Shown: positions 1,414 through 47,410 of the stretch, piece by piece
Layout of the letters: each line of letters begins with the position of its first letter
Position numbering within the stretch: position 1 is the stretch's first letter
NCBI RefSeq assembly: GCF_000426045.1
Contig: NZ_AUEP01000005.1
Span: 62,001 to 126,000, forward strand
DNA length: 64,000 nucleotides
Direction: 5' to 3'
DNA from: Marmoricola sp. URHB0036
GTDB taxonomy: Bacteria > Actinomycetota > Actinomycetes > Propionibacteriales > Nocardioidaceae
Notes under the pieces: model-generated
What the model saw: the letters and a program-made list of their open reading frames with translations, nothing else
Database searches by the model: none
What the model was told of the DNA's origin: nothing
Program-made: the position numbers and the translations under genes

Positions 1414-2217
1414 TCACCTCCGTGCTGCGACGTAGCAGGCGACGGCCGTCGCGGCGGCCACGTTGAGGGAGTCGATCCCACGCCCCATCGGGATCACCGC
1501 TCGCCGCTCGGCGGAGCGCTCCCACCGTGCCGACAGGCCGTGACCTTCCGACCCGACGACCAGGGCCATCCGGCCCAGGCCGGACACCGCCTCCTCCAGC
1601 GGGACGGCGTCGTCAGCCAGGGTGAGGGCGACGGTGTGGAGTCCCCTGTTGCTCAGGTCCGGTAGTGCGTCGTACCAGTCCGGCAGTCGCGTCCACGGCA
1701 GCGCGAAGACCGCGCCCATGGCCACCTTCACCGAGCGGCGGTAGAGCGGGTCGGCGCACCGCGGCGCCAGCAGCACCGCGTCGACACCGAGCGCTGCAGC
1801 GGACCTGAAGATCGCACCGACGTTGGTGTGGTCGACGACGTCCTCGCAGACGACGACGGTGCGGGCGTCGTCGAGCACCTCCTCGACCGTCGGCAGAGGA
1901 GTTCGTGCGAGGGAGGCCAGGGCGCCGCGGTGCACGTGGAACCCCGTGACGTGCTCGGCGAGGGCCTCGCTGACCACGTAGCAGGGCGCGTCGGTCCCCT
2001 CCAGCACGTCGGCCAGCCCGTCGAGCCAGCGCGGCGCCATCAGGAAGGACCTGATCGGGAAGCCGGCCTCGGCGGCCCGTCGTACGACCTTGGCGCCTTC
2101 GGCGAGGAACAGACCGTGCTCGGCCTCGAGCGACTGCCGCAGCTGTACGTCGCGCAGGTCGCGGTAGTCGGCGAGGCGGGGGTCGGCGGGGTCGTCGATC
2201 TCGACGTACGTCGTCAC
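1414..2217 (-). CDS. SpoU/TrmH family RNA 2'-O-methyltransferase
   Basis: A 267-residue protein with an N-terminal substrate-binding domain (SLEAEHGLFLAEGAKVVRR) and a C-terminal SPOUT knot. The three SpoU motifs are clear: NVGAIFRSAAALGVDAV, ALVVGSEGHGLS and IPMGRGIDSLNVAAA. The family methylates the 2'-OH of a ribose in tRNA or 23S rRNA using S-adenosylmethionine; the target nucleotide cannot be assigned. The GTG start at 2217 overlaps the stop codon of the siroheme synthase gene by GTGA, so the two are probably translationally coupled. An open frame continues upstream inside the neighbouring gene, but it has no homologous features and was not used. Confidence 0.88.
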   Translation of the reverse strand: MTTYVEIDDPADPRLADYRDLRDVQLRQSLEAEHGLFLAEGAKVVRRAAEAGFPIRSFLMAPRWLDGLADVLEGTDAPCYVVSEALAEHVTGFHVHRGALASLARTPLPTVEEVLDDARTVVVCEDVVDHTNVGAIFRSAAALGVDAVLLAPRCADPLYRRSVKVAMGAVFALPWTRLPDWYDALPDLSNRGLHTVALTLADDAVPLEEAVSGLGRMALVVGSEGHGLSARWERSAERRAVIPMGRGIDSLNVAAATAVACYVAARR

Positions 2218-3491
2218 GCTCGGTGCTGCTCCGGGGCCGGGTAGTCGTCGGGCCGGGCAATGGCCACGACCTCGCCGACGACGATGATCGCCGGGGGGTG
2301 CACGTCGTGCGTGACGAGGTCGTCCGCGAGGTCGCCGAGCGTGCTGAGCACGGTGCGCTCGGTCGGCATGGTGCCGTCGCAGATCACCGCCACCGGGGTG
2401 CGTGCGTCCCGGCCCCCGCGGAGCAGCACCTCGGCGATGAGCGGTGCGTTCTCGACCGCCATCATCAGCACGATCGTGCCGCGCAGGCTGGCCAGTGCGC
2501 CCCACTGCACGAGCGACTCGGGGTGACCGGGTGGGAGGTGCCCGGAGACGATGGTGAGGTCGTGGGTGATCCCACGATGCGTGACCGGGATACCGGCCAC
2601 GGCCGGCACCGCCAGGGGACTGCTGATGCCGGGGATGACGGTCACCGGGACACCAGCCTCCTGGCAGGCGATGACCTCCTCGTAGCCGCGGCCGAAGACG
2701 AAGTTGTCGCCGCCCTTGAACCGGGCCACCCGCTTGCCGGCCTTGGCCGCCTCGACGATGACCTCGTTGATCCGGTCCTGCTGGGCCGAGCGGCCGCGCG
2801 GGAGCTTGGCGACGTCGACGATCTCGGTGTCGGCCGGCAGCTCGGCCAGCAGCTCTCGCGGGGCGAGCCGGTCGGCCACCACGATGTCGGCCTCCATCAG
2901 CGCCTTGCGCCCGGCCACCGAGATGAGCTCGGGGTCCCCCGGTCCACCGCCGACGAGCACGACGCCCGGGCCGTGGTCGCGGTGGTGCCTGGTCGCGAGC
3001 GCACCCTCGCGCATCGCGGTCACGATCTCGTCGCGGAGGCTGGCGTGGCGGCGCGGGTCGCGCTCGCCCGCCGAGCTGCCCATCACCGCGATGGTGTCCC
3101 CGGCGTGGCGTCCGACGGCAGGCGTGAACGCTGTCGCGGCGTACGCGTCGTCGGCCCTGACGCAGAACACCCGCCGCTCCTCGGCCAGCTCGCTGACCCG
3201 CTCGTTGACCTCGTGGTCGTCGGTGGCTGCCATCACGTACCAGGCGCCCTCGAGGTCCTCGTCCTCGAAGCCGCGCTCGAGCCAGCGCACCTCGCCCGAC
3301 CCGACCAGGCCCTCGATGGCGGGGGTGACCTCCGGCGAGACCAGGTGTACGTCGGCCCCTGCGGCGATCAGCGTGGGCACCCGGCGCTGCGCGACGTTGC
3401 CTCCGCCCACCACCAGGACCTTGCGGCCCGCGAGCCGCAGCCCGACCGGGTAGATCGGGGGGTCGCCGTGCTCGTCGTGAGGTGTGTCCAC
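2214..3491 (-). CDS. cysG: Fused siroheme synthase (precorrin-2 dehydrogenase / uroporphyrinogen-III C-methyltransferase)
   Basis: A 425-residue bifunctional enzyme. The N-terminal part (about 1-170) has the NAD-binding motif [13 protein letters not shown] of precorrin-2 dehydrogenase/ferrochelatase. The C-terminal part (about 175-420) has the SUMT motifs [31 protein letters not shown] and [20 protein letters not shown]. It converts uroporphyrinogen III to precorrin-2 and onward toward siroheme, the cofactor of assimilatory sulfite and nitrite reductases; no reductase gene is in the window. The length is close to that of enterobacterial CysG. The start is GTG at 3491. Confidence 0.92.
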
Positions 3492-3562
3492 GGGTCCATT
3501 GTGTCCATCCCGGGCGGCCGACGGGTTTGCCCCTCCCAGCCTGCGGACTAACGTTCGCCTGC

Positions 3563-4090
3563 ATGAGCATCGAACGCCCCGTGAGCCCCGATCCCTACGA
3601 CCTGCTCCCGCCTGCCCCGAGCTTCACCGTCACCAGTGACGACGTCACCGACGGCCAGCCGCTCAAGGACGACCAGGTGAACGCCGCGGGCGACCGCTCC
3701 CCGCAGCTGTCGTGGAGCGACGTCCCCGAGGGCACCAAGAGCTTCACGGTGACCTGCTTCGACCCGGACGCTCCGACGCCCTCCGGTTTCTGGCACTGGG
3801 CGCTGGTCGACCTCCCGGCCGACGTGACCTCGCTGGAGGCGGGTGCCGGCGCCGAGGGGGCCACGCTGCCGGGCAATGCCTTCATGTGCCGCAACGACGG
3901 CGGCAGCAAGGCGTTCATGGGTGCCGCGCCGCCGGAGGGCGACCAGGTGCACCGCTACTACTTCGTGGTGCACGCAGTCACCGAGGAGTCGCTCGGAGTC
4001 GACTCCGAGGCCTCCCCCGCGGTGGTCAGCTTCAACCTCGCCTTCAAGACCGCCGGCCGAGCGATCGTGATGGGCACCTACCAGCACTGA
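3563..4090 (+). CDS. YbhB/YbcL-type Raf kinase inhibitor-like (PEBP) protein
   Basis: A 175-residue cytosolic protein of the phosphatidylethanolamine-binding superfamily. Family signatures are [20 protein letters not shown] near residue 50, [19 protein letters not shown] (ligand-pocket Asp and His) and the late [10 protein letters not shown] segment. The bacterial members have no settled function. The ATG at 3563 was chosen because the family sequence begins right after it; an open frame runs further upstream but overlaps the promoter region. It is followed by two strong hairpins and appears monocistronic. Confidence 0.87.
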
Positions 4091-4107
4091 GGACGCCTTC
4101 GGGTCCA

Positions 4108-4137
4108 GCGGTTTGGCCGGGCGACCGGCCAAACCGC
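4108..4137. terminator. Perfect 13-bp hairpin with GCGA loop after the PEBP gene
   Basis: The arms 4108-4120 and 4125-4137 are perfect inverted repeats around the tetraloop GCGA, which fits the stable GNRA class. There is no U-tract, as is common for actinobacterial terminators. It lies 18 bases after the PEBP stop codon. Confidence 0.7.
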
Positions 4138-4169
4138 CAGTGGAGGGTTGAAACATCACCCCTCCACTG
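4138..4169. terminator. Second hairpin, 10-bp arms and 12-nt loop, directly abutting the first
   Basis: The arms 4138-4147 and 4160-4169 pair perfectly around a 12-base loop. The hairpin starts at the base after the previous one ends, giving a tandem structure between the PEBP gene and catalase. Confidence 0.6.
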
Positions 4170-4291
4170 ACAGTTCAGGACATCCGGATGACGCTGTCTT
4201 GATTCATTCCAGTGTCGGTGGTTGTGTCGGACGGACGTGGGTACGCCCCGAGGGTGCCCACCACGGCACGAACGACTGACGAGGAGTGCGC

Positions 4292-5884
4292 ATGACCGAC
4301 CTGCCCCAGCCCGACGACGGAACCTCCATCGCGACGGCTCCGTCCTCCGAGGCCTCGATCGGCTCGACGACCGACACCGGCGCTCCGGCGCCCAGCGACC
4401 GCAACACCCTGACGATCGGTCCGGACGGGCCGATCCTGCTCCACGACGTGCACTTCCTGAACCAGATGGCGCACTTCAACCGCGAGCGCATCCCGGAGCG
4501 CAACGTGCACGCCAAGGGGTCCGGTGCCTTCGGTGAGTTCGAGACGACCGAGGATGTCTCGGCCTACACCAAGGCCGGGCTGTTCCAGCCGGGCGCGAAG
4601 ACCGAGATGCTGGCCCGCTTCTCGACCGTTGCCGGCGAGCAGGGCTCTCCCGACACCTGGCGTGACCCGCGCGGCTTCGCGCTGAAGTTCTACACCGACG
4701 AGGGCAACTACGACCTGGTCGGCAACAACACGCCGATCTTCTTCATCCGCGACACGATGAAGTTCCCGCACTTCATCCGCTCGCAGAAGCGCCGTGGGGG
4801 CAACGGCCTGCGCGACAACAACATGCAGTGGGACTTCTGGAGCCTCAACCCGGAGTCGGCCCACCAGGTGACCTACCTGATGGGTGACCGCGGGATCCCG
4901 AAGACCTACCGCCACATGAACGGCTACGGCTCGCACACCTACCTCTGGGTCAACGAGGCCGGCGAGAAGCACTGGGTCAAGTACCACTTCCACAGCAACC
5001 AGGGCGTCGAGGGCCTCACCGACGAGGACGCGACCCAGATCGCCGGCGAGGACGCCGACTTCCACCGCCGCGACCTCTACGACTCGATCGCCAAGGGCGA
5101 CTTCCCGAGCTGGACGCTGTCCATCCAGGCGATGCCGTACGCCGACGCGAAGACCTACCGGATCAACCCGTTCGACCTCACCAAGATCTGGCCGCACGGC
5201 GACTACCCGCTGATCAAGGTCGGCACGATGACGCTGAACCGCAACCCGGAGAACTTCTTCGCCCAGATCGAGCAGGCGGCGTTCGAGCCGAGCGCGCTCG
5301 TGCCCGGCATCGGGTTCAGCCCGGACAAGATGCTGCTCGGCCGCGCCTTCTCCTACTCCGACACCCACCGCCACCGGATCGGTCCGAACTACCTGCAGCT
5401 GCCGGTCAACCGGCCGCGCGTCGAGGTGAACACCTACACGCAGGACGGGCCGATGGCCTACGAGCACCGCGGCGACGACCCGGTGTACGCGCCCAACTCG
5501 TTCGGCCGCGGCTACGCCGACAACGTGGGTGAGGTCGACCCGGGTTGGGAGACCGACGGCGCCATGGTGCGCCAGGCCTACACGCTGCGCGAGGACGACG
5601 ACGACTTCTCGCAGGCCGGCACCCTGGTGCGCGAGGTGTGGACCGACGAGCAGCGCGAGGCGTTCGTGAAGACCGTCGCCGGCCACCTGCTCGGCGGGGT
5701 CGAGGGAGACGTGCTCGAGCGCGCCTTCCATTACTGGCACCACGTCGACGCCGACTGCGGCAAGAAGATCGAGGAGCTCGTCCGCGAGGGCGCCGACCTC
5801 GGGGCACCCGGCGCCCAGCCGGGTGACGCGCAGCAGGAGGCGTCCGACCCGATCGTCGAGCCGGAGACCCACGCGAGCTCCTAG
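4292..5884 (+). CDS. katA: Monofunctional heme catalase
   Basis: A 530-residue catalase that disproportionates hydrogen peroxide. The distal heme-pocket His is in [16 protein letters not shown], the distal Asn is in [11 protein letters not shown], and the proximal heme-ligand Tyr is in [17 protein letters not shown]. The first 35 residues are a low-complexity Ser/Thr/Ala/Pro leader and the last 30 an acidic tail, both dispensable in the family. The length fits small-subunit catalases. The ATG at 4292 was chosen because GAGGAG lies five bases upstream; a GTG at 4286 overlaps that site. It is a single-gene unit with about 120 bases of promoter region in which I could not identify a peroxide-regulator operator. 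Confidence 0.96.
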
Positions 5885-11446: not shown

Positions 11447-12673
11447 GTGCTGGACGAGAGCGACGGCGAGCAGCCGCGGACCCTGTTGATCACGCTGACC
11501 GGCAAGGACCGGCCGGGCGTCACCTCGATGGTCTTCGACACGCTGGCCCGCTTCGGCGTCGAGGTCATGGACATCGAGCAGATCGTGCTGCGCCGCCGGC
11601 TGATCCTCGGACTCCTGGTGAGCTCGCCGCGCGACTGGAAGCCGCTGCGTGCCGAGATGGAGCGGGTGGCCACCGAGCTGGGGATGACCCTCGAGCTCGA
11701 CCGCGGATCCGGCGACAACCGACCCCGCCCCGAGGGACGCAGCCACGTCACCGTGCTGGGTACGCCGCTGAAGGCACCCGCGGTCGCGGCCATCGCCGGC
11801 CGGATCGCGGACACCGGGGCGAACATCGACCGCATCGAGCGGATGGCCCGCTACCCGATCACGGCGATCGACCTGCACGTCTCAGGTGTCGACCCCGACA
11901 AGCTGCGCGACATCCTGGCCCGCGAGGCCGCCGAGCAGGGCGTGGACATCGCCGTACAGGCCGCGAACCTGCTGCGTCGCGGCATGCGCCTCATCGTGAT
12001 GGACGTCGACTCGACGCTCATCCAGGGCGAGGTCATCGAGATGCTCGCGGCCCACGCCGGATGTGAGGCCGAGGTCCGCCGCGTCACCGAGAGTGCGATG
12101 CGCGGGGAGATCGACTTCACCCAGAGCCTGCACGACCGGGTCGCCCTGCTGGCCGGGCTCGACGAGTCCGCCCTCGACCGGGTGTACGACGACCTCGACC
12201 TCGCCCCCGGCGCGCGTACGACGGTGCGCGTGCTCAAGCGGCTCGGCTACCGGTTCGCGATGGTCAGCGGTGGCTTCTCCCAGCTCACCGACCGGCTCGC
12301 CGAGGACCTCGGCATCGACTTCTCGGTGGCCAACCAGCTCGAGATCGTCGACGGCAAGCTCACCGGTCGGGTGGTCGGCCCGGTCGTCGACCGGGCGGCC
12401 AAGGCCGACGCGCTCCGGACCTTCGCCGAGCGCAGCGGCGTACCCGAGCACGCCACGATCGCGATCGGCGACGGCGCCAACGACCTCGACATGCTCAACG
12501 CCGCCGGCCTCGGCATCGCCTTCAACGCCAAGCCGGTCGTCCAGGAGGCGGCGCACGCGTCGGTCAACGTGCCCTACATGGACGCGATCCTCTACCTGCT
12601 CGGGATCAGCCGGGAGGAGGTCGTCGCGGCCGACGCCGAAGAGGGCGTCACCACTCCCGAGCCGCCTGTCTGA
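11447..12673 (+). CDS. serB: Phosphoserine phosphatase with N-terminal ACT domains
   Basis: A 408-residue HAD-family enzyme catalysing the last step of serine synthesis. The N-terminal half (about 1-170) carries ACT-type regulatory regions (LLITLTGKDRPGVTSMVFDTL and HVTVLGTPLKAPAVAAIAG), as in mycobacterial SerB2. The catalytic half shows motif I MDVDSTLIQGEV (nucleophile Asp near residue 187), motif II MVSGGF, and motifs III/IV with Lys in RAAKADAL and GDGANDLDML. Serine feedback through the ACT domains is likely from family knowledge. The GTG start at 11447 fits the family N-terminus. Confidence 0.96.
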   Translation: MLDESDGEQPRTLLITLTGKDRPGVTSMVFDTLARFGVEVMDIEQIVLRRRLILGLLVSSPRDWKPLRAEMERVATELGMTLELDRGSGDNRPRPEGRSHVTVLGTPLKAPAVAAIAGRIADTGANIDRIERMARYPITAIDLHVSGVDPDKLRDILAREAAEQGVDIAVQAANLLRRGMRLIVMDVDSTLIQGEVIEMLAAHAGCEAEVRRVTESAMRGEIDFTQSLHDRVALLAGLDESALDRVYDDLDLAPGARTTVRVLKRLGYRFAMVSGGFSQLTDRLAEDLGIDFSVANQLEIVDGKLTGRVVGPVVDRAAKADALRTFAERSGVPEHATIAIGDGANDLDMLNAAGLGIAFNAKPVVQEAAHASVNVPYMDAILYLLGISREEVVAADAEEGVTTPEPPV

Positions 12674-37641: not shown

Positions 37642-38109
37642 ATGAGCCGCGAGACACACGCCTTCGTCGAGCGGATGGGTGGTGCCCTGACCCAGGCCGG
37701 CCTCCCGCGCCTCCCCTCCCTCGTGTTCTCGGCCCTGCTCGTCGACGACGACGGGCGGATGACCTCCGCCGAGCTGGCCGAGACCCTCGCGGTCAGCCCG
37801 GCGTCGGTCTCCGGAGCGGTGAACTACCTGGCCCAGCTCGGCATGCTCCGCCGCGAGCGCGAGCGCGGCTCACGTCGGGACGTGTACGTCGTGGACGACG
37901 ACGCCTGGCACGGCGCAATGATGCGCCGCGACCAGCTCTACGCACCGATGATCGCGGCCCTCACCGCGGGGATCCGCGACCTCGGGGACGACTCCCCCGC
38001 CCACGAGCGGCTGCTGCTGACCCGGGAGTTCCTCAACTTCGTCGACGACGAGATGTCCGGCCTGGCGGAGAAGTGGGAGCAGCGTCGCGCCGAGATCACC
38101 GGCTCGTGA
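37642..38109 (+). CDS. MarR/GbsR family transcriptional regulator
   Basis: A 155-residue winged-helix protein. The DNA-binding region spans about 38-85: MTSAELAETLAVSPASVSGAVNYLAQLGMLRRERERGSRR read as two helices plus wing. The opening HAFVERMGGALTQAGLPRLPSLVFSALLV is typical of the GbsR-like group that controls neighbouring ABC exporters in actinobacteria. It probably represses the divergent exporter and itself; the inducer is unknown. Its stop codon directly abuts the stop codon of the convergent PKD protein gene. Confidence 0.88.
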   Translation: MSRETHAFVERMGGALTQAGLPRLPSLVFSALLVDDDGRMTSAELAETLAVSPASVSGAVNYLAQLGMLRRERERGSRRDVYVVDDDAWHGAMMRRDQLYAPMIAALTAGIRDLGDDSPAHERLLLTREFLNFVDDEMSGLAEKWEQRRAEITGS

Positions 38110-40350
38110 CTAGGACACGCCCGCGAGCAGGACGCTGACGCTGACTCCACGCGTGCTCGAGGAGTTCGCGGTCGCGGTCTTCTGACCGCTCGCGCCTGCT
38201 GCTACCGGGGCGTTGCTGTCGGCGAGGAGCCCCGAGATGTGGGCCGAGGACGAGCCGAAGGTCTTCGCGCGGACGATCTGGCCACCGGGGGCGGTCCAGG
38301 CCGTCGTCGAGGTGGACTTGTCGGCCCAGTACGTCACCAGCCAGTTGCCGCTACCGGCCGCACTGACCGCCGGGCTGGTGTGAGCGGCGCCGGTGGTGTT
38401 GTCGACCTTCGAGGCCGAGGCTGCGACCGGGTTGGACGCGTTGGTGTTGCGGTAGGCCACCACCGTGAGGTCGGACTTCACGTACGCCGAGGAGGTGATC
38501 TTGACGGTGCTGCCCGCGTCGGTGGCGGTCGCCACCTTGCGATAGGCACGGACGACCATGCCGTCGCCGTTCTTGCTCTGGAGCATGGTCCAGCCGCTCG
38601 GGTTGGTGTACGTCGAGGTCGACGAGTTGGTGGCGAAGAACAGCATCAACGTGTCCCCGGACCGCACGCTGGAGGGCACGACCACGGTGTGACTGGTCCG
38701 GTTGGCGTTGGTGGCCGCTGCCGCCACCAAGGTGACCGGGGTGGCCGGAGCCGTGGTGGTGGCGAGCACGGTGTCGGTGTCGGAGTTGCCGTGGTCGTCG
38801 GTCACGGTCAGCGTCACCGTGCGGGAGGCGGCCGTCGCATAGCTGTGCGTGGTGCTCACGCCCGACCCCGGCAGGCTCCCGTCACCGAAGTCCCAGCCAT
38901 AGCTGAGGGTCTCGTTCTCCGGGTCGGAGGAGTCGCCGGCGCTGAAGCTGCACGAGAGGTTTGCGCACGTCGCAGCGGCGTGGGCGACCGGTGGCTGGTC
39001 GACCACCGGGTCGGTGGTGGTGACTTCTACGGTGTCGGTGTCGGAGTTGCCGTGGTCGTCGGTCACGGTCAGGGTCACGGTGCGCGTGCCGGCGGCGTAC
39101 GAATGACTCGTCTGCGCCCCCGAGCCCGGGTCGCTGCCGTCGGCGAAGTCCCAGGAGTAGGTCAGCGGGTCGTTGTCGGGGTCGGTCGAGTCGAGGCCGC
39201 TGAACGAGCAGTCCAGGTCAGTGCAGACGACCGATGCGACGGCATCCGGCGCCTGGTTCGGAGGGGGATCCACAGGGTCCTCGGGGTCCACCGGGTCGGT
39301 GGTGGTGGCTTCCACGGTGTCGGTGTCGGAGTTGCCGTGGTCGTCGGTCACGGTCAGGGTCACGGTGCGCGTGCCGGCGGCGTACGAATGAGTCGCCTGC
39401 GCCCCCGAGCCCGGGTCGCTGCCGTCGGCGAAGTCCCAGGAGTAGGTCAGCGGGTCGTTGTCGGGGTCGGTCGAGTCGAGGCCGCTGAACGAGCAGTCCA
39501 GATCAGTGCACGTTGCCGACGCGTGTGCCACCGGTGGCTGGTTCGGCGGCGGGGTGAGGGGAAGTCGGTTGGCCCACACGCCGGCGACCGCGCCGTTGAA
39601 CTGGTCGGTGGCGCTGGAGACGATGCTTCCGGACGGGTTCAGCTTCCCGCCGATGGAGGCCGGCGTGCCGGCCGGGAACGACAACGTCCCTGACGATCCG
39701 GTCGCGACCGTGGTGACGGGCGTCGCCGTGCTGCCGTACGGCGCCCACGCCACCGTGACCTTGGTGCCGACCCGCGAGCAGGTGACGCGGTACCACGCGC
39801 CCGAGACCACCTTGGTCGGCGAGCTGGCGAACACCTGTCCGGCCGAGCCACGCACCAGGCACGAGGGATAGCCATGATCGATCTGCAGCTTGAACTGCGA
39901 CGGGTCCTGGTAGAGCCCCCGCTGGAACAGGTTGTCCCCGTTGTCGATCGAGCGCGTCGACGTAGTGGTGTCGACGCGGAAGACAGCGCCGTACTCGAAG
40001 TCGGAAGCGCCCGGCGACAACCCGCCGCCCGAGGTCGGGACCGCCCCGACGACCGCGCGCGGGTAGGTGCCCGACGTGACGTACGCCGGGAACTGCAGCG
40101 CCCTGGTCGAGCTGTCCGGCCCGGCGACCACCGTGGCCTTGCCGCTGCTGATGGACGCGACCGACACGCTCACAGGGGTGTCGCCGCCGATGGCGAACTG
40201 GCTGGGACCCGTTGCCACCGTTCCCGGCGTGCCGATCACCGACATGGTGAGGCTGTTGGCAGCCGCGTCAGCGCTGGCACCACCGGCGAGACCGAGCGCG
40301 GCCACGGAGAGCGCGAGCAGTACACCGAGGTGCCGCGCCCCACGCCCCAT
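38110..40350 (-). CDS. Secreted protein with three PKD domains
   Basis: A 746-residue exported protein. A signal peptide covers residues 1-31 (hydrophobic LGVLLALSVAALGLAGGASA). An N-terminal beta-rich domain (about 32-265) resembles the LamG/concanavalin A-like fold. Three PKD domains follow (about 275-355, 370-450 and 455-540), each with PLTYSWDFADGS or YGWDFGDGS and TVTLTVTDDHGNSDTDTV. The C-terminal region (about 545-746) is Ser/Thr/Ala-rich and beta-predicted, and I do not recognise it. No catalytic motif, sortase signal or membrane anchor is seen. It may bind polysaccharide or surfaces, by inference from its domains. Confidence 0.88.
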   Translation of the reverse strand: MGRGARHLGVLLALSVAALGLAGGASADAAANSLTMSVIGTPGTVATGPSQFAIGGDTPVSVSVASISSGKATVVAGPDSSTRALQFPAYVTSGTYPRAVVGAVPTSGGGLSPGASDFEYGAVFRVDTTTSTRSIDNGDNLFQRGLYQDPSQFKLQIDHGYPSCLVRGSAGQVFASSPTKVVSGAWYRVTCSRVGTKVTVAWAPYGSTATPVTTVATGSSGTLSFPAGTPASIGGKLNPSGSIVSSATDQFNGAVAGVWANRLPLTPPPNQPPVAHASATCTDLDCSFSGLDSTDPDNDPLTYSWDFADGSDPGSGAQATHSYAAGTRTVTLTVTDDHGNSDTDTVEATTTDPVDPEDPVDPPPNQAPDAVASVVCTDLDCSFSGLDSTDPDNDPLTYSWDFADGSDPGSGAQTSHSYAAGTRTVTLTVTDDHGNSDTDTVEVTTTDPVVDQPPVAHAAATCANLSCSFSAGDSSDPENETLSYGWDFGDGSLPGSGVSTTHSYATAASRTVTLTVTDDHGNSDTDTVLATTTAPATPVTLVAAAATNANRTSHTVVVPSSVRSGDTLMLFFATNSSTSTYTNPSGWTMLQSKNGDGMVVRAYRKVATATDAGSTVKITSSAYVKSDLTVVAYRNTNASNPVAASASKVDNTTGAAHTSPAVSAAGSGNWLVTYWADKSTSTTAWTAPGGQIVRAKTFGSSSAHISGLLADSNAPVAAGASGQKTATANSSSTRGVSVSVLLAGVS
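39005..39225. repeat. 221-nt direct repeat, copy encoding PKD domain 2
   Basis: This segment matches 39290-39510 with about five base differences by eye, at an exact offset of 285 bases (95 codons). It covers most of the second PKD domain. Confidence 0.85.
39290..39510. repeat. 221-nt direct repeat, copy encoding PKD domain 1
   Basis: This is the partner of the copy at 39005-39225. The linker between copies is unlike the repeat and encodes a Pro/Asp-rich hinge, so the duplication included a whole domain plus linker. Confidence 0.85.
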
Positions 40351-40561
40351 GCCACTCGTCTTCCGGTTCGCTCCGACCCCCCGGTGCAGACAGCAATTTA
40401 CGGGCTGTGCACGCTCGCGACGGCTCGTCGTCCAGGGACGACGGCGTCAGGTCTGGTCCGGCAGCTCATTTGCCCCGGTTGAGGGCGAAATTCGGGGCGG
40501 CACGTCGGCACCCGCGCCCAGATTCCGAGACGACGTGGGCTGTACCAGTGCGCGTCCACGC

Positions 40562-41005
40562 CTAGGCGTCGGCGAACGGCTCCCGGTAGCCACCATTGCT
40601 CCGGCCCGGCACCCCGAACTCCCGCGCCAGCACGCCGCGGAGCTCCGCGATCATGGCCTCCACGCCGCCCTTCTCGATGTAGCCGTGGGCTCCGAGAGCC
40701 ATCGCGCGCTCGATGGCGCCGCTGGAACCGGTGAAGGCGGACAGCATCACCACGATCGACCCCGGTGACTCCTCGCGGATCAACGTCAGCGCCTGGAGCC
40801 CGTCCATCACCGGCATGGCGATGTCCAGCAGCACCAGGTGCGGCTTGTGGGCCGCCACCGCCGCCACGCCCGCGTCTCCGTCAGCGGCCTCGGCCACGAT
40901 CGTGAAGTCGGCCTCTCGCTCGAGGGCGAGCCGCACCAGCAGCCGCAGATCGGACGAGTCGTCGACCAGGACGACGCGAATCGGACTCGCGACCTTCGAC
41001 GTCAC
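40562..41005 (-). CDS. Single-domain response regulator (receiver protein)
   Basis: A 147-residue CheY-like receiver. The acidic pair is in VVLVDDSSDLRLL, the phosphorylation Asp is in LVLLDIAMPVMDG near residue 60, the conserved Thr/Ser position is in VVMLSAFTGSS, and the Lys is in GYIEKGGVEAM. No output domain follows. The GTG at 41005 was chosen since AAGGAGG lies upstream at suitable spacing. No sensor kinase is adjacent; the truncated PAS kinase at the left edge is 39 kb away. Confidence 0.88.
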   Translation of the reverse strand: MTSKVASPIRVVLVDDSSDLRLLVRLALEREADFTIVAEAADGDAGVAAVAAHKPHLVLLDIAMPVMDGLQALTLIREESPGSIVVMLSAFTGSSGAIERAMALGAHGYIEKGGVEAMIAELRGVLAREFGVPGRSNGGYREPFADA

Positions 41006-41146
41006 CCAGACCCCTCCTTGAGCCCTCAACGAGATGCGCCCACGCTAGCGGCGCTGGGACCAACGAGGTAGCCAAACAGAGATGATGGGTCGGGCGGGAG
41101 CCTTCTCATGGTGTGGTCGGGGGCGCAGGCACTACCGTGACGGGCA

Positions 41147-41164
41147 GGTCGCCTTCTGGCGACC
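41147..41164 (+). promoter_or_regulatory. Hairpin in the leader of the SerA fusion gene
   Basis: GGTCGCC (41147-41153) and GGCGACC (41158-41164) pair perfectly around the loop TTCT, ending about 12 bases before the GGGGAGG ribosome site. It may affect mRNA stability or expression. No known riboswitch fold was recognised. Confidence 0.4.
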
Positions 41165-41188
41165 GGCTCAGGCGCGGGGAGGTGTCGG

Positions 41189-43555
41189 ATGCCGGAAGGC
41201 CGCCCGGACGTACGCCGGGACGACCGAGCGGGCGCGGGACTGCGCATCCTCGTGGCCGACTCGCTGCCGCAGACCGCCATCGACGAGCTCGAGACCCGCG
41301 GGCACGAGGTGGTCGTTGACGCGGGCCTGACCGAGTCCGACCTCGCGGACCGCATCCACGGGTTCGACATCCTGGTCGTCCGCAGCACCAAGGTGAAGAA
41401 GGGTGTCTTCGCCAACGCCGACCAGCTGGGCCTGGTGATCCGCGCCGGCGCCGGCACCAACACCATCGCCACCGGCGCCGCGGCAGCCAGGGGCGTGCTC
41501 GTGGCCAACGTCCCAGGCCGCAACTCCGCCGCGGTCGCCGAGCTCACCATGGGGCTGCTCCTGGCCCTCGACCGCCGCATCCCGGACAACGTCGCCGACC
41601 TGCGCGCCGGTCGCTGGGACAAGAAGGCCTACGGCAAGGCCGAGGGCTTGCTCGGCAAGACCATGGGCATCGTCGGTCTGGGCTCGATCGGGTTCGCCGT
41701 CGCCGAGCGGGCGGTCTCGTTCGGCATCACGGTGCAGGCGCTGGACAAGCCACGCGAGCCGTACGCCGAGGCGCGGGTCGCCGAGCTCGGGATCGTGACG
41801 TGCTCCTCGCTGGAGGAGCTGCTGACCACCTCCGACATCGTCTCCCTGCACGTGCCGTCGGCCTCGGAGACCAAGCACCTCGTCGACAAGACCTTCCTCG
41901 GCCACCTCCGCCCCGGCTCGATCCTGCTGAACACCTCGCGCGGGGACGTCATCGACGAGGTGGCCCTGCTGGAGGCGCTCGACGCAGGGACGTTGCGCGC
42001 GGGTCTGGACGTCTACGACGACGAACCCGGGTCGGGCCGGGCGGAGTGGAGCTCCACCCTGGCTCAACACCCCGGCGTCGTGGGGACGCACCACATCGGT
42101 GCCTCCACCGAGCAGGCCCAGGTCGCGACCGCCGCCGGCGTGGTCGAGATCGTGGACGCGTTCGTCGAGGGCGAGGCACGCAACTGCGTCAACCTCGCGC
42201 CCAGCCGGCTCGGCTCGGTGACGCTGACCGTCCGCCACCTCGACCGTCCCGGAGTGCTGGCGCGGGTGCTGGACCTGCTCAGCGTGGCCCGGTTGAACGT
42301 CGAGCAGATGGAGAACCGCGTCTTCCGCGGCGGCGAGGCCGCGATGGCCACCATCGATGTCGCGGGAGCGCTTCCCGACGGGCTGCTCGCCGATCTGCAG
42401 GCCATCCCCAACGTGCTCGGTGTCTCCGCCGCTCCGTTCGCGGGGTCGGCCGGGCCGGAGCGGGTCGAGTCCGCCTCCGCCGTACGTCCTCTCCAGGCGC
42501 GGATCGTCCGCCAGGACGATGCCGCCGCGCACGTGTCGCAGATGCTCGATGCGCTGCCGCCCTCCGAGCGGTCCTCGGACACCCACGCGGACACCCGGCG
42601 GCCACGCGAGTTCGACCCCCGGTCCTACGAGGGCGGCCCGGCCGCGCTCTTCCTCTACCGGCTCCGCCGCGGCGACGAGGAGCACGTCGGCGTGGTCAGC
42701 GACGTCAGTGCCGAGGCGTTCGTCGACGGACAGGTCCGGGGCCACGAGGCGGTCCAGCCTGACCGCGTCGAGGCCCTGGTGCGGCACTTCACCTCGGCAG
42801 CGGTGCGGTCGGAGCTGGTGGCGCTGCTGCACCGACCCGGCCCGGCCGTCGAGGCCGCCAAGGCCGAGACCCTCGGCACATCACCGCTCGTCCAGTTCAC
42901 CGGACCCGACGCGTGGGAGCAGACCGTGTGGCGGGTGCCTGACTCCCTGGGCGCGGTGCTGGCGGCCGAGCTGGGCAGTGGCGTCCACTACATCGCCGAC
43001 GGGCACCACCGCGTCGCGGCGAGCCTCGACGTGTGGCGTGCGGCCGGGCAACCGGCGGAGGCCGGAGTCATGTGCGTGATCTACCCGTTCGACGGGCTAC
43101 GGCTGCTGGCCTTCCACCGCCGCGTCACCGGCCCGGTCCGCCCGCAGACCCTGCGCACCTTGCTGTCGGCCGACTTCGAGCTCCGCGACATCGCCGGTCC
43201 GGACGACGCGCACGGCTGCTTCGCGGTCTACGTCGAGGGCCGGTGGTACGACGCGTCCTACACCGGCATCCGCCTCCCCGGTGCCGCCGGGCTGGACATC
43301 GCCGTCCTCAACGAGCACGTCATCGATCCCCTGCTCGGCCTCGACGAGCTGGCCGGCAACCGGCTCGAGATCGTCTCGGCACTCTCGAGCGTGCCGGACC
43401 AGGCGCGCGCCTGTGACGAGGACGGCGGTGCGCTGTTCGTGCTGCGGCCGCCCCCGATGGAGCAGCTGACCGACGTCGCCGACCGGGGCGAAGTGATGCC
43501 CCCGAAGACGACGTACTTCGACCCGAAGCCGTACGCCGGGATCTTCCTGCGTTAG
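41189..43555 (+). CDS. serA: D-3-phosphoglycerate dehydrogenase-ACT-DUF1015 fusion protein
   Basis: A 788-residue protein. Residues 20-340 form the 2-hydroxyacid dehydrogenase: NAD motif MGIVGLGSIGFAVAERA near 160, the Arg region SILLNTSRGDVIDE, and catalytic His in VGTHHIGASTEQAQ. Residues about 345-415 form an ACT domain (LTVRHLDRPGVLARVLDLL). Residues about 430-788 match DUF1015, with signature HYIADGHHRVAAS near 600 and FDPKPYAGIFLR at the end. The first part would make 3-phosphohydroxypyruvate for serine synthesis. DUF1015 genes are often beside serA in other bacteria, but here the two are one frame with no stop between. GGGGAGG precedes the ATG at 41189. Confidence 0.92.
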   Translation: MPEGRPDVRRDDRAGAGLRILVADSLPQTAIDELETRGHEVVVDAGLTESDLADRIHGFDILVVRSTKVKKGVFANADQLGLVIRAGAGTNTIATGAAAARGVLVANVPGRNSAAVAELTMGLLLALDRRIPDNVADLRAGRWDKKAYGKAEGLLGKTMGIVGLGSIGFAVAERAVSFGITVQALDKPREPYAEARVAELGIVTCSSLEELLTTSDIVSLHVPSASETKHLVDKTFLGHLRPGSILLNTSRGDVIDEVALLEALDAGTLRAGLDVYDDEPGSGRAEWSSTLAQHPGVVGTHHIGASTEQAQVATAAGVVEIVDAFVEGEARNCVNLAPSRLGSVTLTVRHLDRPGVLARVLDLLSVARLNVEQMENRVFRGGEAAMATIDVAGALPDGLLADLQAIPNVLGVSAAPFAGSAGPERVESASAVRPLQARIVRQDDAAAHVSQMLDALPPSERSSDTHADTRRPREFDPRSYEGGPAALFLYRLRRGDEEHVGVVSDVSAEAFVDGQVRGHEAVQPDRVEALVRHFTSAAVRSELVALLHRPGPAVEAAKAETLGTSPLVQFTGPDAWEQTVWRVPDSLGAVLAAELGSGVHYIADGHHRVAASLDVWRAAGQPAEAGVMCVIYPFDGLRLLAFHRRVTGPVRPQTLRTLLSADFELRDIAGPDDAHGCFAVYVEGRWYDASYTGIRLPGAAGLDIAVLNEHVIDPLLGLDELAGNRLEIVSALSSVPDQARACDEDGGALFVLRPPPMEQLTDVADRGEVMPPKTTYFDPKPYAGIFLR

Positions 43556-44448
43556 AGCAACGGCTCGATCTGTGGGAACTGCCGCTGGAGCGCGCGCAGG
43601 TGCGGAGCCACGGCGGGGTGGCGGTACTTGCCGGCCAGGGCGCCCTCACCCCTGGCCACCTGGGCCAGCGCCCACTCGGCTCGGGTGACGACGCTGTAGA
43701 CGGCGGTCACCCGGGCGGCGAGAGCGACCACGTCTGCGTCGACGCCGGGTCCGGCGCCGTCGAGGAACGTCTCGAGCAGCACACCGAACTCCTCGCGGCT
43801 CGACAGCGCGAAGTAGCCGAGGTCGGCCCCGACCGGTCCCGTGCCGAAGCACTGCCAGTCGACCGCCACGACGTCCTCACCGCGAGCAGCGACGAAGTTG
43901 GTCGGTACGGCGTCCCCGTGCACCCGACCCTGGGGCGCCTCCGCGCAGAGCGAGAGCCAGTGGCCGCGACGTTCCCACAGCCGGTCGGTCACGTCGGCGA
44001 GGGTCGTCCTCGCCAGGGTCGGCCAGCCCCCGCGCTCGGCGGCCATCGCCAGCCGGTTCTCCAGCAGCCGGCGGGCGGCCCAGGCGGGTGCGTCGTACGG
44101 CGCGGCAGCGAAGCGCCCGAGTGCGCGTGCGACGAACAACCCCGGCGGCGACTCGCCGGCCATCTCGGCACTCCACACGGTGAGGCCCTCGTCGTCCTCC
44201 TCCACCGGCCCGAACTCCGGCGGCACCAGTCCGACGCGGCCGAGCACGGCGGGGTCACGGGCGACCTCGGCCTCGCGTCGCCAGTAGCCGGCGTGGGCCG
44301 GATCGAGCAGCGCGGGGGTGGTCCCGTCCGGGGCCTCGAGCCGCTTGACCACCCAGGTGCGGCCGTCGTCGTCGGCCAGCCAGACACCCGCGCTCGAGGG
44401 TCCCCCGGCGCCCGGAAGCCTGCGCCACGAGGGGTCCGGCTCCCACAT
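43552..44448 (-). CDS. Aminoglycoside phosphotransferase-fold kinase
   Basis: A 298-residue protein of the APH/choline kinase superfamily. The N-lobe has WVVKRLEAPDG (candidate ATP-binding Lys). The catalytic loop is GRVHGDAVPTNFVA near residue 175, the Brenner motif, with metal-binding Asp in VVAVDWQCFGTGPVGADLGYF. The target could be a small-molecule alcohol, a sugar or an aminoglycoside; resistance is not implied. It converges on the SerA fusion gene with a four-base overlap of their ends. Confidence 0.87.
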   Translation of the reverse strand: MWEPDPSWRRLPGAGGPSSAGVWLADDDGRTWVVKRLEAPDGTTPALLDPAHAGYWRREAEVARDPAVLGRVGLVPPEFGPVEEDDEGLTVWSAEMAGESPPGLFVARALGRFAAAPYDAPAWAARRLLENRLAMAAERGGWPTLARTTLADVTDRLWERRGHWLSLCAEAPQGRVHGDAVPTNFVAARGEDVVAVDWQCFGTGPVGADLGYFALSSREEFGVLLETFLDGAGPGVDADVVALAARVTAVYSVVTRAEWALAQVARGEGALAGKYRHPAVAPHLRALQRQFPQIEPLL

Positions 44449-44544
44449 GGCCCCGCTCCCCTCGTGCGTCCGTCGCGCTCATCCTGACAGAGCAAGCGAG
44501 CGCCGGACGGTTTCAGGCCGGCACCGGCCGGGCACGGGTGCCAC

Positions 44545-46383
44545 ATGACCCAGGCGACCGACTCCCCCGCACCGGCCCTCCAGAAGGGGCTCAAGCAGCG
44601 TCACCTGACGATGATCGCGATCGGGGGTGTCATCGGGGCCGGCTTGTTCGTCGGCTCGGGCGCGGTGATGAAGGACGCGGGACCAGCAGCGTTCCTGAGC
44701 TATGCGATCACCGGTCTCCTGATCATCCTGATCATGCGGATGCTCGGCGAGATGGCCACCGCCAACCCGTCGACCGGGTCGTTCGCCGACTACGCACGCC
44801 GCGCCCTGGGCGGGTGGGCAGGCTTCTCCGTCGGCTGGCTCTACTGGTACTTCTGGGTGATCGTGGTCGGCTTCGAGGCCGTGGCCGGTGCCGGGATCCT
44901 GCGCTACTGGTTCTCGGGCGTGCCGCTGTGGATCTTCGCGCTCGTCCTGATGGCGCTGATGACGGCGACCAACCTGTTCTCGGTCTCGTCGTACGGCGAG
45001 TTCGAGTACTGGTTCGCCGGCATCAAGGTCTTCGCCATCATCGCCTTCCTGATCCTCGGCACGCTCTTCGTCATCGGCCTGTGGCCGAACCAGAGCTTCG
45101 ACGTCAGCAACCTCACCGACCACGGCGGCTTCCTGCCCAACGGCGCCGGCGCGATCTTCTCCAGCATCGTCGTGGTCGTGTTCTCGATGGTGGGGGCCGA
45201 GATCGCGACGGTCGCGGCGGCCGAGTCGCACGACCCGGCGAAGGCGATCGCCAAGGCGACCCAGTCGGTGATCGTGCGGGTGGGCACCTTCTACGTCGGC
45301 TCCGTGTTCCTGCTGCTGTGCATCGTGCCCTGGACCCAGGGCAAGCCCGACAAGTCGCCCTACGTCGACGCCTTCAAGGAGATGGGCATCCCGTACGCCG
45401 ACGACATCATGAACGCCGTCGTCCTCACCGCGGTGCTGTCGTGCCTGAACTCCGGGCTCTACACCGCCTCGCGGATGCTGTTCGTGCTCGCCGCCCGACG
45501 CGAGGCGCCGATGCGACTGATCACCGTGAACGGCCGTGGCGTTCCCGTCTGGGCGATCCTCGCCTCGACCGTGGTGGGCTTCCTGAGCGTGGTGGCGGCG
45601 TACGTCTCCCCCGACACCGTCTTCGACTTCCTGCTGAACTCCTCCGGCGCCGTGATCCTGTTCGTCTACTTCCTGATCGCGGTCTCCCAGTTCGTGCTGC
45701 GGCGTCGTACGCCGGAGGAGGACCTCACCGTGAAGATGTGGTTCTTCCCGGTGCTCACCATCCTCGCTGCAGCCGGCATCGTCGGTGTGCTGGTGCAGAT
45801 GGCGTTCAAGTCCGACACCCGCTCACAGCTGCTGCTGAGCCTGCTGTCGTGGGCCGTCGTGCTCGTCCTCTACGCCGTCACCCGCTGGCGCGGCGGCTCG
45901 GTCTCCGTGGAGGAGATGGAGGCCGGCGCCGACGACCACCGGCCCGCCAAGAAGGTCATCGTCCTGGCGAACCGCACCATGGCCGAGGACGAGCTGCACG
46001 ACGCCCTCGAGCGCATCGACGGCAGTGGTGACGCGTCGTACCTCGTCGTGGTGCCGGTCAACCCGGTCGACACCGGCACCGCCGACCGAGAGGGCGCTGC
46101 CTTCGTCTGGCAGGCCACGACCGAGGCGGCCCAGCAGCGGCTCGACGAGACCCTCTCGGACCTGCGCGGTCGCGGCCTGACGGTGGAGGGCGAGCTCGGT
46201 GACTACCGACCCCTGGTCGCCCTCGACTCGGCGTTCAAGGAGTTCGAGGCCGACCACGTGGTGATCGCGACCCAGCCCGAGGACCGCTCGTCCTGGCTCC
46301 GGCACGGCATCGTCGCCGACGCCAGGGAGCGCTACGACGTCCCCGTCCAGCACGTGGTGGTGCACGCCTCGGTGCCGTCCTGA
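44545..46383 (+). CDS. Amino-acid permease (APC family) with C-terminal USP-like domain
   Basis: A 612-residue protein. Residues 18-455 form about 12 transmembrane helices of the amino acid-polyamine-organocation family; the opening LKQRHLTMIAIGGVIGAGLFVGSG is diagnostic of the GabP/AnsP/RocE group. Residues about 469-612 form a soluble Rossmann-like domain, beginning KKVIVLANRTMAEDE and ending DVPVQHVVVHA, which resembles universal stress proteins. The substrate could be GABA, Asp/Asn or an aromatic acid. The added domain may sense a nucleotide or regulate transport; that is inferred. Confidence 0.9.
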   Translation: MTQATDSPAPALQKGLKQRHLTMIAIGGVIGAGLFVGSGAVMKDAGPAAFLSYAITGLLIILIMRMLGEMATANPSTGSFADYARRALGGWAGFSVGWLYWYFWVIVVGFEAVAGAGILRYWFSGVPLWIFALVLMALMTATNLFSVSSYGEFEYWFAGIKVFAIIAFLILGTLFVIGLWPNQSFDVSNLTDHGGFLPNGAGAIFSSIVVVVFSMVGAEIATVAAAESHDPAKAIAKATQSVIVRVGTFYVGSVFLLLCIVPWTQGKPDKSPYVDAFKEMGIPYADDIMNAVVLTAVLSCLNSGLYTASRMLFVLAARREAPMRLITVNGRGVPVWAILASTVVGFLSVVAAYVSPDTVFDFLLNSSGAVILFVYFLIAVSQFVLRRRTPEEDLTVKMWFFPVLTILAAAGIVGVLVQMAFKSDTRSQLLLSLLSWAVVLVLYAVTRWRGGSVSVEEMEAGADDHRPAKKVIVLANRTMAEDELHDALERIDGSGDASYLVVVPVNPVDTGTADREGAAFVWQATTEAAQQRLDETLSDLRGRGLTVEGELGDYRPLVALDSAFKEFEADHVVIATQPEDRSSWLRHGIVADARERYDVPVQHVVVHASVPS

Positions 46384-46420
46384 GCCGCGGACAGTCCCCG
46401 TGCGCCCTAGGATCCACGAC

Positions 46421-46612
46421 ATGAGGAACGCTCTCGTGGTCGCTGTGGTCGTCTTTTTCGCCTGCGGCATCGTGCTCGCGGTCGGCCAACCTGACCTGCT
46501 GGTGCGGCTGCTGGGGCTGGTCTCGACCATCGCCGGACTGACCTTCGGCGTGATGGCCGTGGTCGAGACCGTGCAGTGGGTCGCCGCGAAGCACGCTCCG
46601 CGCGACGCGTGA
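46421..46612 (+). CDS. Small two-helix membrane protein
   Basis: A 63-residue hydrophobic protein with two likely helices (about 3-22 and 30-50) and a charged end. No family is recognised. The ATG at 46421 was chosen; a GTG at 46400 is an alternative. It follows the permease by 37 bases in the same direction. Confidence 0.6.
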   Translation: MRNALVVAVVVFFACGIVLAVGQPDLLVRLLGLVSTIAGLTFGVMAVVETVQWVAAKHAPRDA

Positions 46613-46656
46613 GCTGGCGGCACACCGCTGGTTCGCGGCACCTCTCGCAGCGCTAT

Positions 46657-46682
46657 GTAGACGTGCCACGTGGAACCTCTAC
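46657..46682. repeat. 26-nt palindromic repeat, copy 1
   Basis: Bases 46657-46682 (beginning GTAGACGTGCCACG) match 46738-46763 at all but four positions. The GTAGA/TCTAC ends pair, and an inner CGTGCCACG can also fold. Confidence 0.6.
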
Positions 46683-46732
46683 GCAGTCCCCGATCAACGA
46701 GTCTCCGGGTCTCGTGGCCCGTCTCCCAACGC

Positions 46733-46768
46733 ACTCAGTAGACCTGCCACCTGGAAGGTCTACCGAGT
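46733..46768. terminator. Palindrome containing copy 2 of the 26-nt repeat
   Basis: ACTCAGTAGACC (46733-46744) pairs with GGTCTACCGAGT (46757-46768) with one mismatch, around a 12-base loop. It lies between the convergent small membrane gene and the acVLRF1 gene and probably terminates one or both. Confidence 0.6.
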
Positions 46769-46804
46769 CTGCGGCGGACTGCTCCCCGCCGCTGCCGGAC
46801 AGCG

Positions 46805-47410
46805 TCAGGCGTTGACGACGCTGATCCGGACGTTCCCGGCGTCCAGGATCGCCTGCTCCAGCACGCCTCGGCGCGGGTCGGGGACGGGGAGGAACGGCTG
46901 CAGGACGGCGATCCCGGCCAGCCGCCGGTCGGTCAGCACTGCCTCGACCGCGGCATGGTCGCCGCCGGTCACGATCAGCGGAGCACCCCCCAGGATGCGA
47001 CTGGCATGCTCGGCGGCCGCCTCGTAGGCCATCCGGGCCTGGTTGTCGCGACGCCGGGCGAACCGCTGCTGGCTCTGGCCGCCGGCCTTGGTCCGCCCCT
47101 GCACGTGTCGCTGTCCGACCTTCGACTCGACGATCGTCTCCGCGTTGAGGCGGGCGATGGCGAAGCCGCCCTTGCGGACGAGCAGCACTCCCCAGTCGTC
47201 CGGCGGTGCGCAGGACTCGACGAAGGTCGCGACCGACGCCGCTCCGTCGTAGAGACGGTCGAACGGGGCCTGGGCGACGAACGTCGATCCGTCGGCGGCG
47301 AGTCCGGCCAGCGTTCCCGACGTCACCGAGAGCGCCACCTCGCCGTGCCGGGAGCCGAAGTTCTCGACCCAGCGCGTCAGTCGCGCCGGCGGGACGGCGA
47401 CCTCGGACAC
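46805..47410 (-). CDS. Actinobacterial VLRF1-type peptidyl-tRNA hydrolase (acVLRF1)
   Basis: A 201-residue protein of the Vms1-like release factor 1 family, related to eukaryotic eRF1 and Vms1. The key catalytic segment is GRTKAGGQSQQRFARRRDNQ near residue 105, where a GGQ-like loop is followed by QRFARRR. The second half (EHASRILGGAPLIVTGGD) forms the C-terminal fold. Members are expected to release nascent chains from peptidyl-tRNA on stalled ribosomes; action in this organism is by family knowledge. The GTG at 47410 is the likely start, four bases after the preceding stop. Confidence 0.82.
   Translation of the reverse strand: MSEVAVPPARLTRWVENFGSRHGEVALSVTSGTLAGLAADGSTFVAQAPFDRLYDGAASVATFVESCAPPDDWGVLLVRKGGFAIARLNAETIVESKVGQRHVQGRTKAGGQSQQRFARRRDNQARMAYEAAAEHASRILGGAPLIVTGGDHAAVEAVLTDRRLAGIAVLQPFLPVPDPRRGVLEQAILDAGNVRISVVNA

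Follow-up and report, generated by a model that had tools for sequence, protein, structure and literature searches.

A SerA-type dehydrogenase fused to a DUF1015 domain of predicted SerK fold in Marmoricola

The nearest solved relatives of the domain described here are free serine kinases. SerK of Thermococcus kodakarensis (PDB 5x0b-5x0k) is ADP-dependent and converts ADP and serine to AMP and phosphoserine. SbnI (PDB 5uje, 5ujd, and 6nr6), likewise a free serine kinase, belongs to the staphyloferrin B pathway, and its gene sits in a siderophore operon, not with serA or serC. The HAD-type phosphoserine phosphatase SerB, a member of an unrelated family, catalyzes the step that we propose for DUF1015 (PF06245). 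We detected DUF1015 in 258 of 396 sampled actinobacterial genomes and in many other phyla. No paper assigning it a reaction was found in the open-access literature; a first-pass annotation of this DNA had also described the domain as lacking an assigned reaction. Mentions of the domain are scattered: within the portions of these papers available to us, serC, an NAD(P)-binding protein, and DUF1015 are neighbors in two Porphyromonas species (PMC11316588), DUF1015 is placed under "electron transport chain" (PMC12828279), and a single mention lists "DU1015" with the domains found fused to ParB-CTPase folds (PMC12704722).

Here, we analyzed a 64,000-nucleotide stretch of the genome of Marmoricola sp. 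URHB0036 (the window), which encodes a SerA-type dehydrogenase and a DUF1015 domain within one protein. The component families are known; as far as our search of the open-access literature reaches, the fusion and the reading of DUF1015 as SerK-like are new. The explanation we consider best, and hold with moderate confidence, is that SerA has been joined to a SerK-fold enzyme that exchanges phosphate between phosphoserine and serine.

Domain layout of the fused protein

The fused gene occupies positions 41189-43555 of the plus strand as a single frame of 788 codons without internal stops, and a GGGGAGG run lies immediately 5' of its ATG. The dehydrogenase domains span residues 20-335 (41246-42193, +), where Pfam reports 2-Hacid_dh (PF00389; residues 20-335, 90.6 bits) and 2-Hacid_dh_C (PF02826; residues 121-304, 151.3 bits). 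Phosphoglycerate dehydrogenases are the closest PDB chains, and the half carries GLGSIG (163-168), SRGDVIDE (250-257), DVYDDEPG (274-281), and THHIGAST (300-307), which we take to be SerA-type signature stretches (R/E/H). Among NCBIfam families, the two that match it best both describe phosphoglycerate dehydrogenase, and both score below cut-off (TIGR01327, 286.3 bits against 454; NF008759, 226 bits against 404), so we name this half SerA-type only. From its sequence we infer that it works like SerA; the substrate is not proven. An ACT domain follows at residues 345-407 (42221-42409, +), with a weak Pfam score of 23.7 bits that falls under the cut-off of 27. The first-pass annotation had read one uninterrupted frame with dehydrogenase and ACT domains, all of which stands, the ACT domain only weakly.

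The junction and a mostly disordered linker lie at 42419-42643 (+); in the closest relatives, stop and start codons overlap here as RTGA. In an AlphaFold2 model of residues 426-788 (mean pLDDT, 84.6), every residue but one between 435 and 482 has a pLDDT below 50, and the two halves are accordingly predicted to be connected by a flexible linker. DUF1015 matches residues 486-691 with 91.9 bits against a cut-off of 25.8, covering profile positions 85-307 of 325, and a conserved C-terminal PPKTT...PK stretch extends beyond the Pfam match toward residue 788. Pfam, the model, and structural matches together delimit a SerK-like DUF1015 domain at residues 486-788 (42644-43552, +). The profile search thereby upheld the earlier assignment of the C-terminal half to DUF1015 and corrected its boundary, as the domain proper begins near residue 486 rather than 430. 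Profile positions 1-84 are unmatched, and PYDV, which marks an N-terminal region typical of canonical members, is absent from residues 426-485; that region is not part of the curated criterion for DUF1015 membership.

Downstream, a minus-strand gene for an APH-family phosphotransferase lies tail to tail with the fused gene, overlapping it by four bases (43552-43555), and an amino-acid permease gene lies just downstream at 44545-46383; a related permease gene is found near serA-serC-DUF1015 in one relative (locus L108). No RNA family reached its gathering threshold around the fusion (positions 38000-47000 of the window).

Origin from an overlapping gene pair

At E < 1e-30, the DUF1015 subfamily of the fusion was retrieved from 22 of 341 Nocardioidaceae genomes searched, the window genome included; in an order-level sample, 10 of 391 genomes matched it, all Nocardioidaceae. 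None of the other 21 subfamily loci contains a SerA-DUF1015 fusion. An upstream SerA on the same strand, 56-73% identical to the N-terminal half of the fusion, is encoded in 19 of them, and at each of the 15 closest loci (L093-L107), the end of serA overlaps the beginning of DUF1015 by 4 nt (stop and start as ATGA or GTGA), the two frames being different. Locus L109 shows a 4-nt overlap as well, L110 has a 30-nt gap, and two more distant loci (L108 and L111) have the order serA-serC-DUF1015 with 4-nt overlaps, the middle gene encoding a class V aminotransferase. Beyond the pair, and leaving aside frames overlapping or antisense to it, no family recurs in more than 7 of the 21 loci plus the window; larger shared neighbor groups were not identified individually. 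In the tree, the fused copy groups within the subfamily with five gene-pair loci (support, 97/98).

Further SerA-DUF1015 fusions were absent from 30 loci with serA within reach (among the best 80 diverse loci introduced below) and from 15 loci chosen for long open frames (L194-L208). The survey of such fusions that the first-pass annotation had suggested thus found the arrangement in a single genome, as a derived form, with two-gene pairs in the relatives. A serA-DUF1015 pair whose ends overlapped gave rise to the fusion. Separately, locus L195 holds a 928-aa frame (1967-4753) in which DUF1015 is C-terminal and the preceding ~500 residues have no Pfam match; it may be a fusion or a chance frame.

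A single frame could also result if two overlapping genes had been joined by a mistake in sequencing or assembly. The closest relatives carry their 4-nt overlap in different frames, so that an indel could join such genes, and the fusion is present in just 1 of 22 subfamily genomes. We simulated 650 single-base indels at offsets 1200-1329 of the open reading frame. Four of them introduce a SerA-frame stop at offsets from 1225 to 1340. The 4-nt overlap of the relatives is restored by none, and a single wrong base is therefore no explanation for the fusion. The DUF1015 frame has no start codon (ATG, GTG, or TTG) between residues 410 and 448, and the linker is longer than in the relatives. Moreover, of the positions that never vary among 18 relatives, the fused copy keeps 111 of 112 in SerA and 43 of 45 in DUF1015 (L093, L112, and L113 were left out before counting). 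Although no raw reads were available, the missing start codon, the failure of the indels to restore the overlap, and the retained invariant positions make an assembly error unlikely, and we give the erroneous joining of two genes very little credence. The fused gene product looks like a working protein, the activity of both halves being inferred from residue conservation. The fusion is also physical evidence that DUF1015 works with SerA.

A SerK-like fold and a serine-pathway context

When the fused DUF1015 model was compared with the PDB using Foldseek, all nine chains at E <= 0.001 were SerK, SbnI, or the SerK-like protein 1vk1. These align with Z scores of 12.2-14.4 across 211-218 residues; the next match is a sulfiredoxin (Z, 6.4), with sulfiredoxin and Noc entries at about 6 and lower. 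A canonical DUF1015 protein from Agathobacter ruminis, modeled with a pLDDT of 96.9, retrieved the identical nine chains at E <= 0.001 (Z, 10.6-12.3; next match, 2.2). The two models share most of their alignment rows and are therefore not fully independent. Profile searches of 177,635 PDB sequences agree: for a profile of 81 DUF1015 proteins, the top four are 1vk1 and three forms of SerK, with weak scores (E, 0.047-0.15), and a profile of the fusion's subfamily ranks the same four highest (1vk1 at E, 0.0021; SerK at E, 0.011). The SerK fold of DUF1015, resting on these predicted models, is the firmest step of our argument, and we hold it with high confidence.

The residues invariant in the DUF1015 alignment (HE, ADGHHR, K-T, and PK) are all present in the fusion. 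H519-E520 (42743-42748, +) aligns with H29-E30 of SerK, in an alignment that rests on a chimeric query. In the profile matches, A603-R608 (ADGHHR; 42995-43012, +) aligns with VDGHHR of SerK and the C-terminal PPK(S/T)T with SPKTT; the latter is PPKTT at residues 771-775 of the fusion (43499-43513, +), with K773 and T775 invariant in the alignment. The SerK entries E30A and E30Q in the PDB differ at the letter corresponding to the Glu of HE, which marks it as a residue picked for mutation. C-terminal to HE, canonical DUF1015 members additionally conserve T-R-x-x-K-E-x-D-R, which is missing from the subfamily of the fusion. This absence would fit a DUF1015 half that is non-catalytic in the fusion, binding serine or phosphoserine together with a nucleotide and regulating the dehydrogenase; ParB-fold proteins can serve as nucleotide switches or scaffolds, according to the part of PMC12704722 that was accessible. 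We regard such a purely regulatory role as improbable, given that all 22 subfamily rows keep HE, DGHHR, and both the Lys and the Thr of PK-T unchanged, among them the site matching the catalytic Glu of SerK (E30), and that the fused protein already possesses a weak ACT domain.

A short, 249-aa form of DUF1015 occurs in the genus of the window (L113, 7451-8200, genome G010; also L029, 1378-2127), matching PF06245 with 81.8 bits; much of the second domain is missing, and HE, DGHHR, and PPKTT are kept. At L029 it adjoins an open reading frame that we read as argC-like.

Across bacteria more widely, we inspected the best 80 matches of a scan of species genomes, drawn from many phyla, with 5-kb flanks. 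Of these 80 loci, 32 have serA and/or serC (or a related aminotransferase gene) no more than 5 kb from DUF1015 and, without exception, on its strand, usually in the order serC-serA-DUF1015 or DUF1015-serA-serC; for 29 of them, the distance to the nearest such gene is at most 1 kb. The next commonest neighbor families occur in six loci. Many contigs end early, and the count of 32 is therefore a lower bound. In 21 other actinobacterial DUF1015 loci (L016-L028 and L085-L092), neither serA nor serC was present within flanks of 1.5 kb or less. Seven of those 21 were placed in the tree, where they form a separate clade whose role may differ.

Regulatory RNA elements precede two of the Bacillota operons. 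A T-box leader lies before the Lutispora DUF1015 operon (L127; 97.6 bits, above the cut-off) and another before that of Peptococcaceae CEB3 (L170; 81.3 bits, below the cut-off of 93; E, 5.2e-18). The specifier of each appears to be UCC, for serine, a reading that we made from the alignment and that no tool named. T-boxes turn on when the cognate tRNA is uncharged, and with a serine specifier, both operons would be expected to make serine. L127 alone was above the gathering threshold among 27 Bacillota loci scanned, with none in the 25 loci other than these two; rescanning six of those 25 at E <= 0.001 yielded no T-box, and a motif scan of the best 80 loci matched L127 and L170 only. A second antiterminator motif resembling that of a T-box follows the first upstream of both operons (2482-2520 in L127; 1795 in L170). 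We take COG4198 to be the same family as DUF1015. A glycine riboswitch before COG4198 genes is reported in the section of PMC2211319 at hand; none was among the matches in the 27 Bacillota DUF1015 loci scanned. A tetrahydrofolate riboswitch lies just downstream of a Lachnospiraceae DUF1015 gene (L161, 1979-2075), perhaps a link between one-carbon and serine metabolism.

Because of the SerK fold, the SerK motifs, and the operon context, we think it probable that DUF1015 acts on phosphoserine or serine, the reaction itself being inferred. The first-pass inference from the fusion, that the two proteins cooperate, perhaps on an intermediate of the serine pathway, gains support from the gene pairs, the serC-serA-DUF1015 loci, and the fold and motifs, which point to O-phosphoserine/serine as that intermediate. 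This reading gives a widespread family testable chemistry.

Direction of phosphate exchange and comparison with known enzymes

In the mechanism that we propose, the SerA-type half would begin the phosphorylated serine pathway, SerC (whose gene lies elsewhere in the genome) would carry out the middle step, and the DUF1015 half would perform the last, moving phosphate between O-phospho-L-serine and L-serine. Fusion of the overlapping serA-DUF1015 pair would have fixed two enzymes at 1:1, with the flexible linker tying the dehydrogenase and ACT domains to DUF1015. In serC-serA-DUF1015 operons without canonical SerB, DUF1015 would strip the phosphate from phosphoserine, transferring it to water or a nucleotide.

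The distribution of SerB bears on the direction of this exchange. The window genome encodes separate canonical SerA, SerB, and SerC proteins, all over their cut-offs (the matched part of SerB at 11945-12601, +, by profile), so the fusion is not the sole serine route there. Every one of the 22 genomes that carry the fusion's subfamily has SerB (TIGR00338) over cut-off, and we reject replacement of SerB by DUF1015 within that subfamily. Across 50 DUF1015 genomes examined, whose completeness is not given, TIGR00338 is over cut-off in two, both among the 32 with serA or serC nearby (L114, of the fusion's subfamily, and L131) and none among the 18 others; in control genomes, it is over cut-off in 7 of 14. 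Three controls contain DUF1015, of which Bacteroides ihuae and Methanosarcina acetivorans have SerB and Thermotoga maritima does not. In the 396 actinobacterial genomes, 45 have both DUF1015 and SerB, 213 only DUF1015, 48 only SerB, and 90 neither (odds ratio, 0.40; p, 1.7e-4); neither this nor any other co-occurrence count was corrected for ancestry. Within one genus, six DUF1015 genomes lack SerB, one genome (G418) has SerB and no DUF1015, and another (G410) has SerB and a weak DUF1015. SerB was not seen to take the operon place of DUF1015 in that genus, neither serA nor serC being found around SerB in G418 and G410 (L209 and L210).

Absence of a TIGR00338 match is not absence of the activity, since histidine phosphatases may supply it. 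Neither Corynebacterium glutamicum nor Bacillus subtilis has a match over cut-off, and both make serine. Genome G276, one of the six SerB-less DUF1015 genomes of that genus by TIGR00338, has a histidine-phosphatase gene (PF00300, 134.8 bits) near DUF1015 and on the strand opposite to it (L211, 2445-3092), a possible alternative phosphoserine phosphatase. A simple pattern for the histidine-phosphatase motif found none near DUF1015 in the 32 operon loci. Two of those loci (L140 and L148) are from Peptoniphilus, where a histidine-phosphatase SerB2 is proposed beside serA in the available part of PMC9026213. The same source, to the same extent, reports 450 gut genomes that have SerA and SerC and lack all four phosphoserine phosphatases considered, a stated gap for which DUF1015 is a candidate.

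For the serC-serA operons of SerB-less genomes, we consider dephosphorylation the likelier direction, if only moderately so. That DUF1015 is the unrecognized phosphoserine phosphatase, or phosphoserine-to-nucleotide phosphotransferase, of many bacteria with SerA and SerC and no known SerB remains a tentative idea that falls somewhat short of even chances. It is made less probable by the two DUF1015-bearing controls with SerB and by the histidine phosphatase of L211. The presence of SerB throughout the subfamily and in those two of the three DUF1015-bearing controls counts against dephosphorylation, as does the kinase activity of SerK and SbnI, which are the closest relatives of solved structure and work in the opposite direction. 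If the phosphatase idea is true, a SerK-fold kinase has been turned to the biosynthetic direction, and the fusion would be a bifunctional enzyme for the first and last steps of serine synthesis.

A rival reading makes the DUF1015 half, in the fusion and its subfamily, itself a free serine kinase that forms phosphoserine from serine and ADP or ATP. It would then either return serine to 3-phosphoglycerate, with SerA operating backward, or provide phosphoserine for cysteine synthesis. Phosphorylation of serine by ATP is the downhill direction, the fold matches are kinases, and the subfamily already has SerB. The permease gene just downstream of the fusion, with its relative near DUF1015 in L108, could also fit, although it is common to only 1 of 21 relatives. 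In Desulfurococcales, serK adjoins serA and aminotransferase genes, and serine assimilation is proposed (PMC5120207, from the text available). Against a kinase stand the operons of the related canonical clade, two of them with predicted serine T-boxes and most in SerB-less genomes, and we rate it as possible but doubtful. For the fusion itself, dephosphorylation and phosphorylation are nearly level: the canonical clade favors the same dephosphorylating chemistry, whereas the redundancy with SerB and the missing canonical stretch keep the kinase strong. The preferred reading, phosphate exchange between phosphoserine and serine, leaves direction, like substrate, as an inference.

Set beside known systems, DUF1015 resembles SerK and 1vk1 of Pyrococcus furiosus in fold over most of its length, in HE/DGHHR/PK-T, and in a gene neighborhood with serA and an aminotransferase, found for those proteins in some archaea. 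It differs in size (~400 against 242 residues), in the extra N-terminal region with PYDV of canonical members, in its 14-17% identity over structural alignments, in being widespread in bacteria, and in that any activity is only inferred for it. SbnI shares the fold of the fused domain (Z, 12.2-13.8) at 11-13% identity. Canonical DUF1015 proteins of serC-serA operons belong to the same Pfam family and to a neighboring clade in a midpoint-rooted tree; unlike the fusion, they stand alone, retain extra conserved residues, and co-occur with SerB in only 2 of 32 genomes. Compared with SerA that has an ACT domain, the fusion resembles the SerA proteins of the gene pairs in its N-terminal half, at the identities given above. 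This half is 30-40% identical to three further SerA-like proteins encoded in its own genome, and the fusion carries an added C-terminal enzyme-like domain.
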